Position numbers and translations under genes: made by a program. A DNA stretch of 64,000 bases. Origin: an archaeon. GTDB taxonomy: Archaea > Thermoproteota > Nitrososphaeria > Nitrososphaerales > Nitrosopumilaceae. The notes under the pieces were generated by a model, which did not search any database, was not told where the DNA came from, and saw only the letters and a list, made by a program, of their open reading frames with translations. Of the stretch, positions 7,976-63,209 are shown piece by piece. The DNA lies in assembly GCA_024276695.1 (NCBI GenBank), contig JAJRWR010000014.1, positions 62,001 to 126,000 on the forward strand, written 5' to 3'. How positions within the stretch are numbered: the first letter of the stretch is position 1; each line of letters opens with the position of its first letter.

Positions 7976-8557
7976 GTGAAAAAGATAGAGGCTATAATTA
8001 AGAGAAAAAACTTTCCCACTCTTAAAACTCATTTGAATGTTGTAGGGACATATATTATTGATAAACGAAATTTAGATGATAGTAATATTTACGATGAATC
8101 ACAAGGTTCTCGTGCTGGTTCTACTGGATTAAAGTCAGTACCACTTGCAAAAATCGAAATGGTAGTTTCAGATAAAGATGCAAGAAAAGTGGTGGAAATG
8201 ATTTCAAAAAATTCTGGTTTATTAACAGCTCATGGTGGTAAAATCTTTGTTTCTGAAATGGAAGAAGTTGTAGATATGGATACACTTGATGGACAACAAG
8301 ATCTTGAAATATCTTTAGATAAAAAACCAGAATTAAAACCATTACCAAAGCGCAGTAGATTTATTCCGTTACAAAAATTTACTTTACATAAACTACAAGA
8401 AACATATGAAGAAAACAAAGAAACTCTTCGAAATGATTATCGGATAAAATCTTTTAGTGATTTTGTAAATTACTGTATTATGAAATCACTTCCAACTTTA
8501 GAAAAACAATTAAAGAATCCTACAATTGTTTACGAAAATAATTTTAGTGATTTTTAA
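7976..8557 (+). CDS. PII-like signalling protein with C-terminal extension
   Basis: The first ~105 residues follow the GlnB fold: KKIEAIIKRKNFPTLKTHL (first strand and helix), a loop region rich in Gly and Ser (GSRAGSTGLKS) where the T-loop would be, then AKIEMVVSDKDARKVVEMI and GGKIFVSEMEEVVDM, matching the PII beta-alpha-beta repeat and its GKIFV motif. The usual C-terminal RTGE-type ATP motif is missing. An extra 75 residues, predicted helical, follow (LQKFTLHKLQETYEEN...). It is therefore a divergent PII relative. It lies in the same neighbourhood as glnB and amt. Start GTG chosen from TATA spacing. What it binds is unknown; nucleotide sensing is inferred. Confidence 0.65.
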   Translation: MKKIEAIIKRKNFPTLKTHLNVVGTYIIDKRNLDDSNIYDESQGSRAGSTGLKSVPLAKIEMVVSDKDARKVVEMISKNSGLLTAHGGKIFVSEMEEVVDMDTLDGQQDLEISLDKKPELKPLPKRSRFIPLQKFTLHKLQETYEENKETLRNDYRIKSFSDFVNYCIMKSLPTLEKQLKNPTIVYENNFSDF

Positions 8558-8646
8558 TAGTAGCCATTAAACAAAGCTAATCCTACTAATGTCATGCCTA
8601 CTGCTGCAAATATTAATTTTACAATAAAAATTTTAGATATTTTCAT
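8554..8646 (-). CDS. 30-aa single-helix membrane protein
   Basis: This small ORF, absent from the ORF track, encodes MKISKIFIVKLIFAAVGM... with one continuous hydrophobic helix (residues 6-26) and a short NGYY end. Its ATG overlaps the TGA of the upstream small ORF in the sequence ATGA, a classic sign of translational coupling, and its stop overlaps the stop of the convergent PII-like gene by about 3 bp. It would be the third cistron of the glnB unit. It may be an accessory peptide of a membrane complex. No family is recognised. Confidence 0.5.
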   Translation of the reverse strand: MKISKIFIVKLIFAAVGMTLVGLALFNGYY

Positions 8647-8771
8647 ATAGCTAAACCGACAATTAATGGCACAACTATAACTCCAACTATTACAGCTACT
8701 TTGAGATAATCTTTACCGTGAAGTGGTTGCATTTTTTCCCTATGAAATAATTTATTTTTACGTAATTTCAT
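8643..8771 (-). CDS. 29-42-aa single-helix membrane protein downstream of glnB
   Basis: The frame opens with ATG at 8769-8771, 8 bp after the glnB stop, giving 42 residues; an in-frame ATG at 8730-8732 would give 29 (MQPLHGKDYLKVAVIVGVIV...). The C-terminal half is one hydrophobic helix (VAVIVGVIVVPLIVGLAI). The longer form adds a basic stretch (KLRKNKLFHREK) that would stay in the cytosol. Tight spacing to glnB and the ATGA overlap with the next small ORF make a three-gene unit likely. No family is recognised; a regulatory or structural partner of a transporter is one possibility. Confidence 0.5.
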   Translation of the reverse strand: MKLRKNKLFHREKMQPLHGKDYLKVAVIVGVIVVPLIVGLAI

Positions 8772-8779
8772 GATTTTTC

Positions 8780-9109
8780 TTAGATCGTACTTTCCCCTTC
8801 GTTACCCGTACCAATATCTATTGCACGTAAAATTTGTGAAACAAAAATTTTACCAACTCTGCCATTTTCTTTGATAATTCCTATGATTTCATCTTCTTTT
8901 GTATCTGCAACTATAACCTCTAAATGATATTTATCGTTAAATTGTGGCACAAAAATCTCACTTCCTTTTGATGCGTGAATTTCAGGACCTGGTCTCTTTC
9001 CTCTTCCCCTAACTTTAGAAACTGTAAGGCCTCCTATGCCTATTTTTTTTAATCCTTCACTGATTGCCATGACATCATTTTCACCAAGGATTACTTCTAT
9101 TTTGAGCAT
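8780..9109 (-). CDS. glnB: Nitrogen regulatory protein PII
   Basis: The 109-residue length and order of motifs fit GlnB/GlnK: MLKIEVILGENDVMAISEGL, a T-loop region (RGKRPGPEIHASKGSEIFVPQ), LEVIVADTKEDEIIGII, the B-loop GRVGKIFV and the C-loop-like GTGNEGESTI. The T-loop tyrosine that bacteria uridylylate (normally in GAEY) is Ile here (GSEI), so that modification cannot occur; control must be by ATP/ADP/2-oxoglutarate binding or another route. It is divergent from the ammonium transporter gene, the classical partner that GlnK plugs. The minus-strand TATA AAATTATATTTG lies about 31 bp before the ATG. Confidence 0.92.
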   Translation of the reverse strand: MLKIEVILGENDVMAISEGLKKIGIGGLTVSKVRGRGKRPGPEIHASKGSEIFVPQFNDKYHLEVIVADTKEDEIIGIIKENGRVGKIFVSQILRAIDIGTGNEGESTI

Positions 9110-9160
9110 TTGATTCTTATAATTTCAATTACACAAATATAATTTCTGATTTTGATAACT

Positions 9161-9175
9161 AAATGATAATCATTT
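9161..9175. promoter_or_regulatory. 15-bp palindromic operator between glnB and amt
   Basis: AAATGATAATCATTT is a perfect inverted repeat (7-bp arms around one A). It lies about 21 bp upstream of the glnB TATA box and about 25 bp upstream of the probable amt TATA box (GTTATTAATT, 27 bp before the amt ATG), so one dimeric regulator bound here could control both genes. The placement is more convincing than the sequence, which is AT-rich. Confidence 0.5.
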
Positions 9176-9226
9176 GTATATCGAATTTAGACATTGTTAT
9201 TAATTCTAAACTAGTCATTTTTTTCA

Positions 9227-10555
9227 ATGGTACTTGATTCTGGAGATACAGCATGGATGCTTGTAGCTGGAAGTCTTGTATTGCTTATGATTCCTGCGTT
9301 AGGTCTTTTTGAATCTGGACTATTAAGAAAAAAGAACGCAGCTTCAATCTTCATGCAGATCTTCTTTGGATTGGCAATGTTGAGTGTAATGTGGTTTATT
9401 TTTGGATTTAGTTTATCTTTTGGTGAGTCTACTATGGGATTAGTTGGAAATATGGACTGGGTGTTCCTTAAAGGAATTCCATCTGATGCTCCATTAGAAC
9501 AATATGCACCAACAATTCCTGGTATGTTATTTGTAAAATTTCAATTAATGTTTGCAGCAATTACTCCATTATTACTTACCGGAACAATTGCTGAAAGAAT
9601 GAAGTTTAGTTCCTTTGTCATATTCATTGCTGCATGGTCAATGCTAATTTACTATCCTCTAGTTCACTGGGTTTGGGGTGGAGGTTGGTTAGCACAACTT
9701 GGTGTTGTTGACTTTGCGGGTGGCATTGTAATTCATACTAGTGTCGGAATGGCAGCATTAGCTGCCGCACTGGTACTTGGTAAAAGAAGAAACTATGGTC
9801 CTGCCATAATGATTCCTCATAGTATTCCGCTAGCTGTACTTGGTTCTTCCTTGTTGTGGCTTGGTTGGTTTGGATTTAATGCCGGTAGCGCACTTTCTGC
9901 CTCTGGTGGGGTTGCAGGAAATACTGTAATTGTAACCCACATGGCATCATCAATTTCTGCTTTAATTTGGGCTGGTCTTTCATGGATAAGAACCGGGAAA
10001 CCATCAGTTGTAGCAACAATTAATGGTGCAATTGCAGGTCTTGCTGGAATTACTCCAGCATCAGGATTTGTTAGTGTTGAACATGCTTTTGTAATTGGTA
10101 TAGCAATAGGTGTAATCTCATATTCTGGTGTTGTACTATTCAAAGAGAAACTAAAGATTGATGATGCACTTGATGTAAGCTCTGTTCACGGAGTTGCAGG
10201 AATTGTTGGTGCACTTGCAATTGGTATCTTTGCAAGTACTGCAATTAATCCTGGTGGTGTTGATGGATTACTATTTGGAAATCCTGATCAATTATGGATT
10301 CAAGCTATAGGTGTAGGTGTTGCAGGTGCAATGGGCTTTGGTGGAACTTGGATAATTTTACAAATAATCAAACATCTAATTGGAATTAGAGTTTCTCCAG
10401 AAGTAGAAGATATTGGTTTAGATATCAGTGAACATGCAGAATCTGCATATTCTGATGAAGAAGAATTCATGTTAGATATGGATGATTATACGGAAGAATT
10501 ACAAGAAAAGGATGAAATACTTTTCAAAAAGAAATCAACTAGTGATAAAAAATGA
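9227..10555 (+). CDS. amt: Ammonium transporter Amt
   Basis: The 442-residue protein has the 11-helix Amt/MEP/Rh architecture, starting with an external N-terminus and DTAWMLVAGSLVLLMIPALG. The twin pore histidines are visible in GGIVIHTSVGMAALAAAL and in SSVHGVAGIVGALAIG, and WFGFNAGSALSA is the conserved fifth-helix region. It carries ammonium into the cell, the energy substrate as well as nitrogen source of this organism group. The C-terminal tail is long and acidic (DEEEFMLDMDDYTEEL) and could be a docking site for a PII protein. The stop overlaps the start of the next gene in ATGA. The start gives a probable leaderless mRNA. Confidence 0.96.
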   Translation: MVLDSGDTAWMLVAGSLVLLMIPALGLFESGLLRKKNAASIFMQIFFGLAMLSVMWFIFGFSLSFGESTMGLVGNMDWVFLKGIPSDAPLEQYAPTIPGMLFVKFQLMFAAITPLLLTGTIAERMKFSSFVIFIAAWSMLIYYPLVHWVWGGGWLAQLGVVDFAGGIVIHTSVGMAALAAALVLGKRRNYGPAIMIPHSIPLAVLGSSLLWLGWFGFNAGSALSASGGVAGNTVIVTHMASSISALIWAGLSWIRTGKPSVVATINGAIAGLAGITPASGFVSVEHAFVIGIAIGVISYSGVVLFKEKLKIDDALDVSSVHGVAGIVGALAIGIFASTAINPGGVDGLLFGNPDQLWIQAIGVGVAGAMGFGGTWIILQIIKHLIGIRVSPEVEDIGLDISEHAESAYSDEEEFMLDMDDYTEELQEKDEILFKKKSTSDKK

Positions 10556-10917
10556 TAGTCAACTATGATAAAATATCTAAACAAGTTGTTAATTTAGATC
10601 CCAAAATTAGATTTGCCGGTGTTGCAAATAGTAAAGGAGAGATGATTGCTGGTGGACAAAAAGAAAATGTTGAGAAAATCTTAGATGGTGAAAATGTTAA
10701 GATGTCAATTCACTATGCACTACAAAAAAGGGATCTGTATACAAATTTAGCATACAAAATTGGTTCAGAACTATCATCAATAACAGAATATGAAAAAGTT
10801 ACCATGATTAGTATTCCAATTAATTCTAACGAGTTGTTTATGGTAAGTACAGAACCAAGAGCAGATTATTTGAAAATTATTGATTTTATTCATTCAGCAC
10901 TTAACCCTCAAAACTAA
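10552..10917 (+). CDS. Small conserved protein coupled to amt
   Basis: The ATG overlaps the amt stop (ATGA), so it is almost certainly translated from the amt message. The 121-residue soluble protein reads FAGVANSKGEMIAGGQKENVEKIL...VTMISIPINSNELFMVSTEP, an alternation of strands and helices that resembles roadblock/profilin-like small sensory domains (start of strand with 'GVANSKGEMIAGG'). I recognise it only as a family common in thaumarchaea without assigned function. Its position between the transporter and a membrane cyclase suggests a role in ammonium-dependent signalling, which is inference. Confidence 0.65.
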   Translation: MIVNYDKISKQVVNLDPKIRFAGVANSKGEMIAGGQKENVEKILDGENVKMSIHYALQKRDLYTNLAYKIGSELSSITEYEKVTMISIPINSNELFMVSTEPRADYLKIIDFIHSALNPQN

Positions 10918-10980
10918 AATCATTACAGGCACAATATACTAAGAAGAGTTGATATTCAATAAAGAAAACATAGAGTAAAA

Positions 10981-12726
10981 ATGTCAATTTCATTCAATCT
11001 TGGTAAAAAACTCGTTTTACTTGTAATGCTTGTAACTATAACTGCATTAAGTATTACATCTTACATGAGTATTGATTATTCTTCTGAAACTCTGAAAGAA
11101 AGAGGAGGAGAACTGCTAGTTGGAGAATCTTCCATTAGGGGAGAATCTTTGATCTCAGTTTTTGAATCAAGAATTGAACAAAATAATATTCTTGCAAACG
11201 ATCCTATGATTCAATCATTAGTTTTAGAAATGAGCAAAATTCCGAATAACAAATTAAAAGAATCTCAAGAAAGCAACCGCAGAGATTTTTTAATTCAAGT
11301 TCAAGCATTTCAAAAATTAATTGGATTTTCAATAGGATTTGAAGATACAAAAATAATTGGGAACAATGGAAAAGTTTTCTTTTCTCTTAGTGGTAATGCA
11401 GATGAAAACTTTATTGAAAACGAATATTTTCAAAGAGGATTAAAAGAATCCTTTATTGAATTTGAATCAACAAAATCTAGTAAAAAATTAGTTGTTGTTT
11501 CTCCAATATTTGCAGATGATAGTAAAAAGGGAGATAAACCAATTGGAGTAATTATTTCAAAAATGAGAACTGCATCAATTGATAATATTATGCTTAATCG
11601 AAGTGGATTAGGTGAAACAGGAGAAGTTTACATTGTAAATGAAGATTTTTTGATGTTATCTGAATCTAGATTTTTTGAAGATGCAGTATTTCAACAACGG
11701 GTAGATACCATTGCTGTACAGAAATGTTTCAATGAAGAAAAAAACTATGCTGGATTTTATTCTGATTATAGAGAAATTCCGATATATGGATCGTCTTATT
11801 GTGCATCAGATTTTGGAATTGTGTTACTTGCAGAAATGGATGAAAAAGAACTTGTTGAACCAATAAAAATTTTACAAACAAGAATTTTACTAACAAGTTT
11901 ACTCATAACATTGCTAATGGGATTGGTTGCATACTTTGCTGCAGAATCATTATCACATCCATTAAAAGCACTTAAAAATGCCGCAAATAAAATTGCAAAT
12001 GGCAAATTTGATGTAAGAACAAACATTACAACAAGTGATGAAATTGGAGAATTATCTTATGCATTTGATTCAATGGCACAAAAACTTGAAGAATCATTAA
12101 TTGAAATTAAAGAGAAAGAAGAGGTTATCAAGCAACTTGAGGGTGGCATGCTACTAAAATTTTCTCAGCATGAACAAAATGATTGTGTAGGTGTCATTGA
12201 TATAACAGATTCTACTAGAATATCATCTAAATTATCAGATGATGATGTGAGTAAAATGTATGAAATCTTTCTAAATTTTATGGCTAAAATTATTCTTAAA
12301 CATAATGGAGAAGTTGTAAAGAATATTGGAGATGCTTTGATGTTTAGATTTGGAAATATTGATTCTAAAGATACTGTAGCAATGAAAAATGTTTTAGAAT
12401 GTTGTTTATCTATGATTGAATCTCATGATGAACTAAAAAAAGAACTTAATGCAGAAAATATAGACGCATTAGATTACAAAATTAGTGTAACATATGGTTC
12501 TGTAAAGGTAGCTGAAAGTACCACTTCCAAATTTTCAGATATTTTTGGACCTACAGTCAATCGATGTTTTAAAATTAATACATTTTGTCCAAAAAACAGC
12601 ATAGTAGTTGGCAGTAATATGTATGAAATTTTAAAGAACTATGACGAATACGAATTTTCTCAATTTTGTTCAATTGAAATGAAAGCAAAATATGATTATA
12701 GTATATTTGAAGTTAAAAGAAGATAA
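10981..12726 (+). CDS. Membrane sensor with HAMP and class III nucleotidyl cyclase domain
   Basis: Domains in order: TM helix (about 11-31), a large external sensory region (32-298, Cache-like with DPMIQSLV and GETGEVYIVNEDFLML), TM helix (about 301-323), HAMP (325-380, SHPLKALKNAANKIANGKF...DEIGELSYAFDSMA), a short coiled coil, and a cyclase domain (about 395-575). The cyclase keeps an Asp-rich first metal motif (VIDITDSTRIS) and VVKNIGDALMFRF, as in adenylate/guanylate cyclases. It probably makes cAMP or a similar product in response to an external ligand. It lies 63 bp after the amt-linked gene. Family sure; activity and ligand unknown. Confidence 0.8.
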   Translation: MSISFNLGKKLVLLVMLVTITALSITSYMSIDYSSETLKERGGELLVGESSIRGESLISVFESRIEQNNILANDPMIQSLVLEMSKIPNNKLKESQESNRRDFLIQVQAFQKLIGFSIGFEDTKIIGNNGKVFFSLSGNADENFIENEYFQRGLKESFIEFESTKSSKKLVVVSPIFADDSKKGDKPIGVIISKMRTASIDNIMLNRSGLGETGEVYIVNEDFLMLSESRFFEDAVFQQRVDTIAVQKCFNEEKNYAGFYSDYREIPIYGSSYCASDFGIVLLAEMDEKELVEPIKILQTRILLTSLLITLLMGLVAYFAAESLSHPLKALKNAANKIANGKFDVRTNITTSDEIGELSYAFDSMAQKLEESLIEIKEKEEVIKQLEGGMLLKFSQHEQNDCVGVIDITDSTRISSKLSDDDVSKMYEIFLNFMAKIILKHNGEVVKNIGDALMFRFGNIDSKDTVAMKNVLECCLSMIESHDELKKELNAENIDALDYKISVTYGSVKVAESTTSKFSDIFGPTVNRCFKINTFCPKNSIVVGSNMYEILKNYDEYEFSQFCSIEMKAKYDYSIFEVKRR

Positions 12727-12873
12727 TAATCCAAAGTATTTTTACAATTAAAAAATCCTAGAATTCATGCCTAAATTAGATTCTTTAAATTGATAATCAT
12801 TTGCAATGATGAAATATCTGATGTTATTAAAATTTAAAATAATAAAAAGAAATTAAAAATTGATTGAACTAAT
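12727..12873. other. Convergent intergenic region
   Basis: About 147 bp between the 3' ends of the cyclase and ferredoxin genes. It is AT-rich, with a TGATAATCA word at 12791-12799 similar to the amt operator but far from any start, and T-rich stretches that could end transcription from both sides. No gene is seen. Confidence 0.5.
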
Positions 12874-61664: not shown

Positions 61665-63209
61665 ATGTCAACTGTTAGAACAATCCAAGTACTTGTTAAA
61701 CTTTTTCCATCTATTCTTGCATTACGTAAAGACAGAAAAAAATGGATTAATCAAGAAAAAAATCAAATTGATTCTGAACAATTTAGAAAAAATGCACGTA
61801 AGGTACTTGATACATTCATTTCATTAGGACCTGTTTACATAAAATTAGGACAATGGCTTTCTTCAAGAGCAGATATTTTACCTCAACCCTATTTGGAAGA
61901 ACTTTCAAAACTTCAAGATAGTGTACCTTCTGCACCTTTTGATCAAGTAAAACCAATAATTGAAAAAGAACTTGGTCCAATTGATGAAAAATTCGATGAG
62001 ATTGATCCTAATTCTATTTCGGGTGCTTCATTAGGTCAAGTTTATCGTGGAACTATTTCAGGTCAACAAATAGTTGTTAAAGTAAAAAGACCAGGAATTG
62101 AAAAAGTTGTAGCAGAAGATCTCAAAGTTTTAAAAAAAGTTCTTCCCTTAGCATTAAGATTTGTTGATCCTAATTTACGCTATTCAGCAAAAGCAATGCT
62201 TTCCCAATTCATTGAAACAATCCATGAAGAAATGGATTATACGAATGAATTACACAATCTCAAAACAATTAAAAATGATATGGCAAATTCAACCAATGTT
62301 ATAGTACCATCTGTTTATGATGATTTATCTTCAAAAAATGTACTAACGATGGAATATTTGCCCGGAATTAAGGTGACAAATGTACAAGCGCTTGATGAGA
62401 AAGGTATTGATAGAGAACAACTAGTCATTGATGTCCATAAGGTTTTTTTTACAATGCTACTCAAGAATTCTATTTTCCATGCAGATCCTCATCCCGGCAA
62501 CATTTCAGTCACTGATGATGGGGAACTCATTTTGTATGATTATGGAATGGTGGGACGAATAAACAATGAAACCAGATTTAAGCTAATTCGACTTTATCTT
62601 GCACTAGTTGAGAGAAATCCTCCAAGGGTAGTTAATGCAATGAATGAACTTTCAATGCTGACACCTGGTTACAACAGAGAAGTCATTGAAAAAGGAATTG
62701 AACTCTCAATACGGGCAATGCATGGAAACAAACCTGATGAAATGGAAGTTCAAAGTTTGATGGAACTTGCAAACCAAACAATGAGTAAATTTCCATTCGT
62801 ATTGCCAAAAAATTTGGCATTGTATATGAGAATGGCATCAATTATTGAAGGAATTTACAAAACACATAATGTTGATTTTAAATTCGTTAAAGTTTTAAAA
62901 AATATTTTACAAGAAGAAAATCTTATTTCACAAGCATATGTACAAGAATTAAAGATTTCATTTGAAAATTTCACAAAATCAGTTGATTCTGCAATTCGTT
63001 TAGGACCTGAGATGAAAAAACTGATGGATGAAGCTCAAATTTTTATGAAAAAACGAAAACCAATGGCTTTACTAAGTGGAAGTATATTTGCATCTGCAAT
63101 TTTTATTGGCTCTGTATTTTTATATCAATCAAATGAATCACTCGGATTTATTGGGATGACTAGCTCTGGTTTGATAATGGCAGCTTCTGGATTTTTTAGA
63201 AAATATTAG
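61665..63209 (+). CDS. ABC1/UbiB-family kinase-like protein
   Basis: The 514 residues have the ABC1 motifs: GPVYIKLGQWLSSRADILPQP (KxGQ), SGASLGQVYRGTISGQQIVVKVKRPG (alanine-rich loop replacing the P-loop, with the ATP-site lysine), HADPHPGNISVTDDGELILYDYGMVG (catalytic HxDxHPGN and DFG-like DYG). A C-terminal membrane segment (about 470-510) anchors it. ABC1 proteins support quinone or isoprenoid lipid metabolism; the exact role is not known. Coupled to the gene before it. Confidence 0.92.
   Translation: MSTVRTIQVLVKLFPSILALRKDRKKWINQEKNQIDSEQFRKNARKVLDTFISLGPVYIKLGQWLSSRADILPQPYLEELSKLQDSVPSAPFDQVKPIIEKELGPIDEKFDEIDPNSISGASLGQVYRGTISGQQIVVKVKRPGIEKVVAEDLKVLKKVLPLALRFVDPNLRYSAKAMLSQFIETIHEEMDYTNELHNLKTIKNDMANSTNVIVPSVYDDLSSKNVLTMEYLPGIKVTNVQALDEKGIDREQLVIDVHKVFFTMLLKNSIFHADPHPGNISVTDDGELILYDYGMVGRINNETRFKLIRLYLALVERNPPRVVNAMNELSMLTPGYNREVIEKGIELSIRAMHGNKPDEMEVQSLMELANQTMSKFPFVLPKNLALYMRMASIIEGIYKTHNVDFKFVKVLKNILQEENLISQAYVQELKISFENFTKSVDSAIRLGPEMKKLMDEAQIFMKKRKPMALLSGSIFASAIFIGSVFLYQSNESLGFIGMTSSGLIMAASGFFRKY

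Follow-up and report, generated by a model that had tools for sequence, protein, structure and literature searches.

The ammonium transporter gene amt of an ammonia-oxidizing archaeon (AOA) from the family Nitrosopumilaceae is followed, in the same direction and after a short spacer, by a gene for a membrane class III cyclase, and this arrangement raises the question of whether the two genes belong to one signalling unit. The locus lies in a stretch of 64,000 nucleotides (the window; positions 62,001 to 126,000) from contig JAJRWR010000014.1 (assembly GCA_024276695.1); the genome is 1.56 Mb in length and 99% complete, and by its nearest named match, Nitrosopumilus sp. PfA, it probably belongs to the genus Nitrosopumilus. 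A preliminary description, made from the sequence of the window alone, had proposed a relay of the ammonium state from Amt to the cyclase by way of a coupled small protein, with a PII-like protein receiving the cyclic nucleotide. All seven genes named there were found in place, and the gap before the cyclase is indeed 63 bp (10918-10980). In the present study, we propose, with a probability of about two in three, that the locus consists of two neighbours, an ammonium-uptake control module and an independent cyclase, and that the apparent amt operon was made by an insertion and then an inversion.

Each protein was searched first in 121 family genomes and afterwards in 60 genomes of the genus (about 170 related genomes overall). 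About 100 loci were compared, including those from Nitrosopumilus sp. PfA (L149), Nitrosopumilales AM_0615 (L150), and Archaeon HR04 (L151); G-numbers denote genomes, L-numbers compared loci, and g-numbers genera. Domains were called by Pfam (Amt by TIGR00836), and the fold of the DUF6659 protein was studied by an AlphaFold2 model and a Foldseek search against the PDB. The features of the locus are as follows.

7976..8557, + strand: PII-family protein with a C-terminal domain predicted to be alpha-helical (the 'PII fusion', PII2); 193 aa, GTG start; Pfam P-II, 2e-10
8554..8646, - strand: m30, single-pass membrane micro-protein; 30 aa, one hydrophobic segment
8643..8771, - strand: m42, single-pass membrane micro-protein; 42 aa, one hydrophobic segment; ATGA overlap with m30
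8780..9109, - strand: GlnK-type PII protein; 109 aa; Pfam P-II, 1.9e-15
9164..9172, no strand: operator-like palindrome TGATAATCA in the glnK-amt divergent promoter; exact match to the conserved TGATWATCA
9227..10555, + strand: ammonium transporter Amt; TIGR00836, 1e-126
10552..10917, + strand: DUF6659 protein; 121 aa; Pfam PF20364, 3e-8; the start overlaps the amt stop by ATGA
10918..10980, + strand: spacer of 63 bp, mostly the cyclase's own upstream element of the type TTGATATTC..TATAAA..AACATAGAATAAAAATG
10981..12726, + strand: membrane class III cyclase with dCache_1, HAMP, and Guanylate_cyc domains; 581 aa; Guanylate_cyc, 5e-14
12791..12799, no strand: second exact TGATAATCA, 3' of the cyclase

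Gene order around the cyclase

The PII fusion, GlnK, and Amt were found together in most genomes that possess them. Members of the genus carry PII fusion-m30-m42-glnK-amt-DUF6659 as one block (the module) at either of two sites. Among the loci compared, it stands between purM-PAC2-HTH and the CaCA antiporter-pmbA genes in 12 genomes, and between dnaJ and the cyclase in 17 genomes, the window included. The module is also conserved as a block in sister genera, at other places. The usual neighbourhood of the cyclase consists of dnaJ, a cupredoxin gene, and a ferredoxin gene, and dnaJ directly adjoins the cyclase where the module sits elsewhere (L103-L108; L249-L259). This adjacency is seen in genomes with the module at the HTH/CaCA site, and shows that the module entered the dnaJ-cyclase neighbourhood by insertion between these two genes. 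In a six-gene tree, the inserted state is found in one large clade and in a separate G159/G155 group.

In 11 genomes, one of which has a truncated cyclase, the cyclase and amt-DUF6659 converge; in six, including the window, they are codirectional, and in 14 genomes that possess both, they are unlinked. Thus, conservation of the order amt-small protein-cyclase, on which the preliminary description had staked its model beforehand, was not found. Five codirectional genomes have a common breakpoint region, though the six-gene tree scatters them, and because of this common region the codirectional order likely arose by a single inversion. An invertible switch acting through inverted repeats on both sides of the cyclase was also considered, and only weak, chance-like repeats were found. 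In most relatives, a gene for a plastocyanin-like cupredoxin lies between the cyclase and the ferredoxin gene; it is missing in the window (12727-12873), where the palindrome at 12791 remains. This palindrome is probably a relic of the divergent regulatory region of cupredoxin and cyclase, left after the inversion of the cyclase and the loss of the cupredoxin gene.

An element of about 60 bp, which ends at the start codon and is composed of TTGATATTC, a TATAAA-like stretch, and AACATAGAATAAAAATG, stands 5' of the cyclase in nearly all of the genus members compared. It is kept regardless of the orientation of the gene or the proximity of amt, which suggests that the cyclase probably carries its own promoter; read-through from amt would be possible but unnecessary. 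In the window, the element occupies most of the 63-bp spacer and was inverted along with the gene. Since the gene order is not conserved and the spacer is largely the element of the cyclase, neither the amt-DUF6659-cyclase 'operon' nor a relay from Amt through the small protein is supported.

Proteins of the module and the common palindrome

The divergent promoter is common to glnK and amt only. The preliminary description had placed six to seven genes around it; this holds for glnK and amt, but the PII-fusion gene has a separate region on its 5' side and is convergent with the unit of glnK and the micro-ORFs (open reading frames), the 3' ends overlapping by 4 nt. A scan for bacterial-type promoters and terminators gave no signal beyond shuffled controls. 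The gene called glnB in that description does encode a PII protein, but of the GlnK type: its nearest solved relative is E. coli GlnK, including the entry of the AmtB complex, and its position beside amt is conserved across relatives. In the alignment, the T-loop has normal length, with Lys aligned to the Amt-plugging Arg47. The canonical ATP/2-oxoglutarate site is not kept: K-R-P stands for R-Q-K (Gln39 is lost), the B-loop TGxxGDGKIF is shortened, and D and G occupy the positions of Arg101 and Arg103 of the nucleotide site.

A second Amt, 46% identical, is encoded elsewhere in the genome. AOA differ by order in their sets of PII proteins, and the low-affinity Amt1 is missing in deep-sea lineages (PMC7490402). 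The Amt of the window is likely of this Amt1 type, because it is absent from the lineages reported to be without low-affinity Amt (PMC7490402).

The set of glnK and micro-ORFs was found in relatives, with 35 orthologues of m42 (ratio of nonsynonymous to synonymous changes, pN/pS, 0.40) and 37 of m30 (pN/pS 0.41), all constant in length and gene order. By this conservation, m42 and m30 are real genes under purifying selection; no report of them was found in the literature searched. In g19 and its relatives (L082, L083, L088, and L093), m42 and m30 are separated by a further conserved ORF of about 90-114 aa (MSLLLITKRGT...).

For the DUF6659 protein, comparison of the sequence with solved structures and other Pfam families gave nothing significant. 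An AlphaFold2 model built from a shallow two-sequence alignment (pLDDT 71.5, pTM 0.69) had Roadblock, MglB, LAMTOR, or Ego proteins as nearly all of its top Foldseek matches (best E 1.3e-3, TM about 0.5), and a Roadblock/LC7-like fold is probable from this model. The genome holds 14 matches to the protein, and no paper naming DUF6659 was found in the literature searched. Near the amt module of some relatives, there is a second DUF6659 gene with a long Lys/Pro/Ala-rich, histone-H1-like tail (Pfam HC2-like; L077:11258-12157, L075:4589-5161, L078:4134-4709, and L080:18353-18970).

Orthologues of the PII fusion were found in 54 of the 121 family genomes and also in Archaeon HR04, beside Amt; a search of viral sequences gave neither the PII fusion nor DUF6659. 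SbtB proteins have a C-terminal CGPxGC redox loop. The proposal that the PII fusion is an SbtB-style receiver found no support: its N-terminal domain is closest to archaeal GlnK, and its extension, predicted to be helical, is without that loop. This C-terminal domain has no Pfam match above the cut-off, and R126, R128, L132, Q133, K134, S159, F160, D162, V164, N165, and C167 are invariant among the orthologues. A ribbon-helix-helix-like DNA-binding domain was considered from the sequence pattern, and no tool supported it. In Nitrosopumilus sp. PfA (L149:9989-10580), the frame is broken near residue 26, possibly by a sequencing error or a frameshift.

Of 53 regions between glnK and amt, 46 contain an exact TGATWATCA (null mean 0.7); as orthologous loci, these regions are not independent. 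The spacing of the palindrome is fixed, usually at about 55 bp to glnK and 61-63 bp to amt. Some species have it in 11-bp tandem copies; between glnK and amt at L243:6068-6186, there are eleven tandem copies of TGATAATCAtt. With one mismatch allowed, the palindrome is enriched 5' of the PII fusion, PII3 (a further PII protein, see below), cupredoxin, and cyclase genes, where the cupredoxin gene often has one common intergenic region with the cyclase or PII3 gene; a mild excess is also seen upstream of usp. Copies 5' of the cyclase and PII3 genes mostly have one mismatch, and some of the cyclase matches are the promoter-proximal TGATATTCA. No enrichment was found 5' of dnaJ, ferredoxin, DUF6659, or second-site genes. 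The window has exact copies at 9164 and 12791.

In the mechanism that we propose, GlnK would plug Amt at high ammonium. The micro-proteins m42 and m30, made from the glnK transcript, would serve as membrane accessory factors, and the Roadblock-like DUF6659 protein, translationally coupled to amt, may be a further one. The PII fusion may convey the nitrogen signal to another target by its C-terminal domain. Transcription of glnK and amt, divergent from their common TGATWATCA operator, would be controlled by a regulator binding to this palindrome.

The cyclase, PII3, and the competing explanations

In an alignment of AOA homologues, the metal-binding Asp residues (D407 and D451) and the adenine-specifying residues (K447 and D520) of the cyclase are invariant (87/87), and the transition-state Asn527 is kept in 86 of the 87. 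The position of the transition-state Arg, four residues past Asn527 (K531), is Lys in all 87. Judged from these residues, the cyclase is probably of the adenylate type, although unusual at the transition-state position. As to the dead catalytic domain considered in the preliminary description, the invariant residues suggest an active enzyme, but the Lys in place of Arg qualifies this. Some cyclase copies are reduced to about the catalytic domain or are without the Cache sensor (L244:8255-8902 in G161; L139, L140, and L141). The cyclic-nucleotide-binding domain PF00027 had no match in the genome, while the control search matched in 11 of 14 genomes; a classical CRP-type receptor of cyclic AMP (cAMP) is therefore missing from the genome.

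In four sister genera (g4, g14, g18, and g22), the cyclase has a 108-aa PII protein of its own, PII3, and the two genes stand tail-to-tail. Of the 25 close copies of PII3 (67% identity or more), 24 are no further than about 70 bp from the 3' end of the cyclase, as are two more distant copies of 53-56% identity. PII3 was not found at the cyclase site in the genus genomes searched, and a few of these keep it elsewhere. G133 (L230) has the order amt-cyclase-PII3-DUF6659, where an inserted second cyclase-PII3 pair separates amt from DUF6659. In G136 (L231) and G167 (L232), PII3 stands beside DUF6659 after the loss of glnK-amt; these arrangements are probably deletion remnants. In G116, another cyclase stands tail-to-tail with the PII fusion. 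The G116 locus (L150:5050-10691) is an independent PII-cyclase arrangement that clusters the PII fusion, a 209-aa cyclase, a dCache-HAMP-PAS histidine kinase, glnK, and amt. No report of an AOA PII-cyclase pair was found in the literature searched.

Among the 39 genus genomes that are at least 90% complete, 20 have both a full-length cyclase and Amt1, four the cyclase only, three Amt1 only, and 12 neither (counts read by eye from match lists; Fisher p=1.5e-4), but phylogeny and genome streamlining are confounders of this co-occurrence. The cyclase is retained without Amt1 in G134, G136, G154, and G167.

Some of these results weigh against our reading, a control module beside an independent cyclase. 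The adjacency of module and cyclase arose more than once, in the main clade, in the G159/G155 group, and in G133; such recurrence exceeds the expectation for indifferent placement, so that some functional link is possible. Control of Amt by GlnK through ATP and 2-oxoglutarate may be altered, because the B-loop is shortened and the equivalents of Gln39 and Arg101/Arg103 are missing. The Roadblock-like fold is probable and not proven, because the model is shallow. A stricter form, which overlaps with our reading, holds that the dnaJ-cyclase gap is a mere permissive landing site and the cyclase is unrelated to nitrogen. It agrees with the two orientations, the many unlinked genomes, and the independent losses, but repeated association with PII genes and the common palindrome argue against it, and we regard it as possible but doubtful.

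A functional link could instead be an AOA PII-cyclase signalling pair, in which PII3 regulates the cyclase or reads cAMP; the genus of the window would have mostly lost PII3, and the amt/GlnK module would have replaced it under the same operator. The proximity of PII3 to the cyclase, the arrangements in G133, G136, G167, and G116, the missing PF00027 receptor, the palindromes 5' of PII3, cupredoxin, and cyclase genes, and the co-occurrence with Amt1 are consistent with such a pair. However, these genera also conserve the wider gene order around the cyclase, and the pairing may therefore be mere inherited synteny; convergent genes are not co-transcribed, and the confounded co-occurrence and imperfect operator copies also count against the pair, which seems to us rather unlikely. 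We find it quite unlikely that PII proteins link nitrogen status to cAMP in AOA, with the cyclase and PII/Amt genes in one TGATWATCA regulon and repeatedly brought together, a PII protein replacing the missing CRP-type receptor, and the micro-proteins and the Roadblock-like protein tuning Amt. The relay of the preliminary description would fit the window and five other genomes, where the genes are codirectional and the gap is short, and also the intact metal and adenine-specifying residues. Against it stand the unconserved order, the cyclase's own upstream element, the four genomes that keep the cyclase without Amt1, and a PII fusion that is not SbtB-like; we consider it very improbable, and the pair in the sister genera is the better-supported link.

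We therefore prefer two neighbours: the module was inserted within the genus beside an independently promoted dCache-HAMP adenylate-type cyclase, which, once inverted in the lineage of the window, came to resemble the end of an amt operon. We redraw the unit as a module of GlnK and Amt, to which new putative accessory proteins and a conserved operator belong. What stands of the single new signalling unit first described is this control unit with its extra conserved parts, but not the membership of the cyclase; the amt-to-cyclase relay as proposed is unlikely.

Comparison with known systems

Ammonia is both the energy source and the nitrogen source for AOA, and the control of its uptake must work without GlnD. 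The module offers testable parts: a PII fusion, a conserved operator, two micro-proteins that are likely to escape notice because they are so small, and a putative Roadblock-like partner of Amt that is translated together with it. The locus also illustrates that a tidy 'operon' can be an accident of recent rearrangement.

Pairing of GlnK and Amt is established in Archaea (PMC3831643, PMC3198391). Like the GlnK-AmtB systems of E. coli, Archaeoglobus, and Haloferax (PMC3831643, PMC3198391), the module pairs a PII gene with amt, and its GlnK has a T-loop of about the same length, in which Lys aligns with Arg47. Unlike them, the two genes are divergent instead of forming a glnK-amt operon, the B-loop and the nucleotide-site residues differ as described above, and micro-proteins, a Roadblock-like protein, and a PII fusion are added. 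A precedent for control of Amt by a small protein is sP36 of Methanosarcina mazei, a soluble 61-aa protein that mediates the contact between GlnK1 and AmtB1 in archaea lacking GlnD (PMC10714827); the likeness is one of description, and sP36 is without a transmembrane helix, whereas m30 and m42 each have one hydrophobic segment.

The amt-coupled DUF6659 protein resembles the Roadblock/LC7 proteins (MglB, Asgard Roadblock, and LAMTOR/Ego3) in its predicted fold, but it has no match at the sequence level, and a small-GTPase partner is usual in Roadblock systems. The PII fusion belongs to the same PII superfamily as the cyclic-nucleotide-binding SbtB (PMC10117731), but differs from it in the missing loop (also in the orthologues), the long C-terminal domain, and closest solved relatives that are GlnK. 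The cyclase has the two metal Asp residues, the adenine-specifying Lys and Asp, and the Asn of class III adenylate cyclases with solved domains (2w01, 1wc0, and 3r5g), and departs from them in the Lys that all 87 AOA copies compared have for the transition-state Arg.

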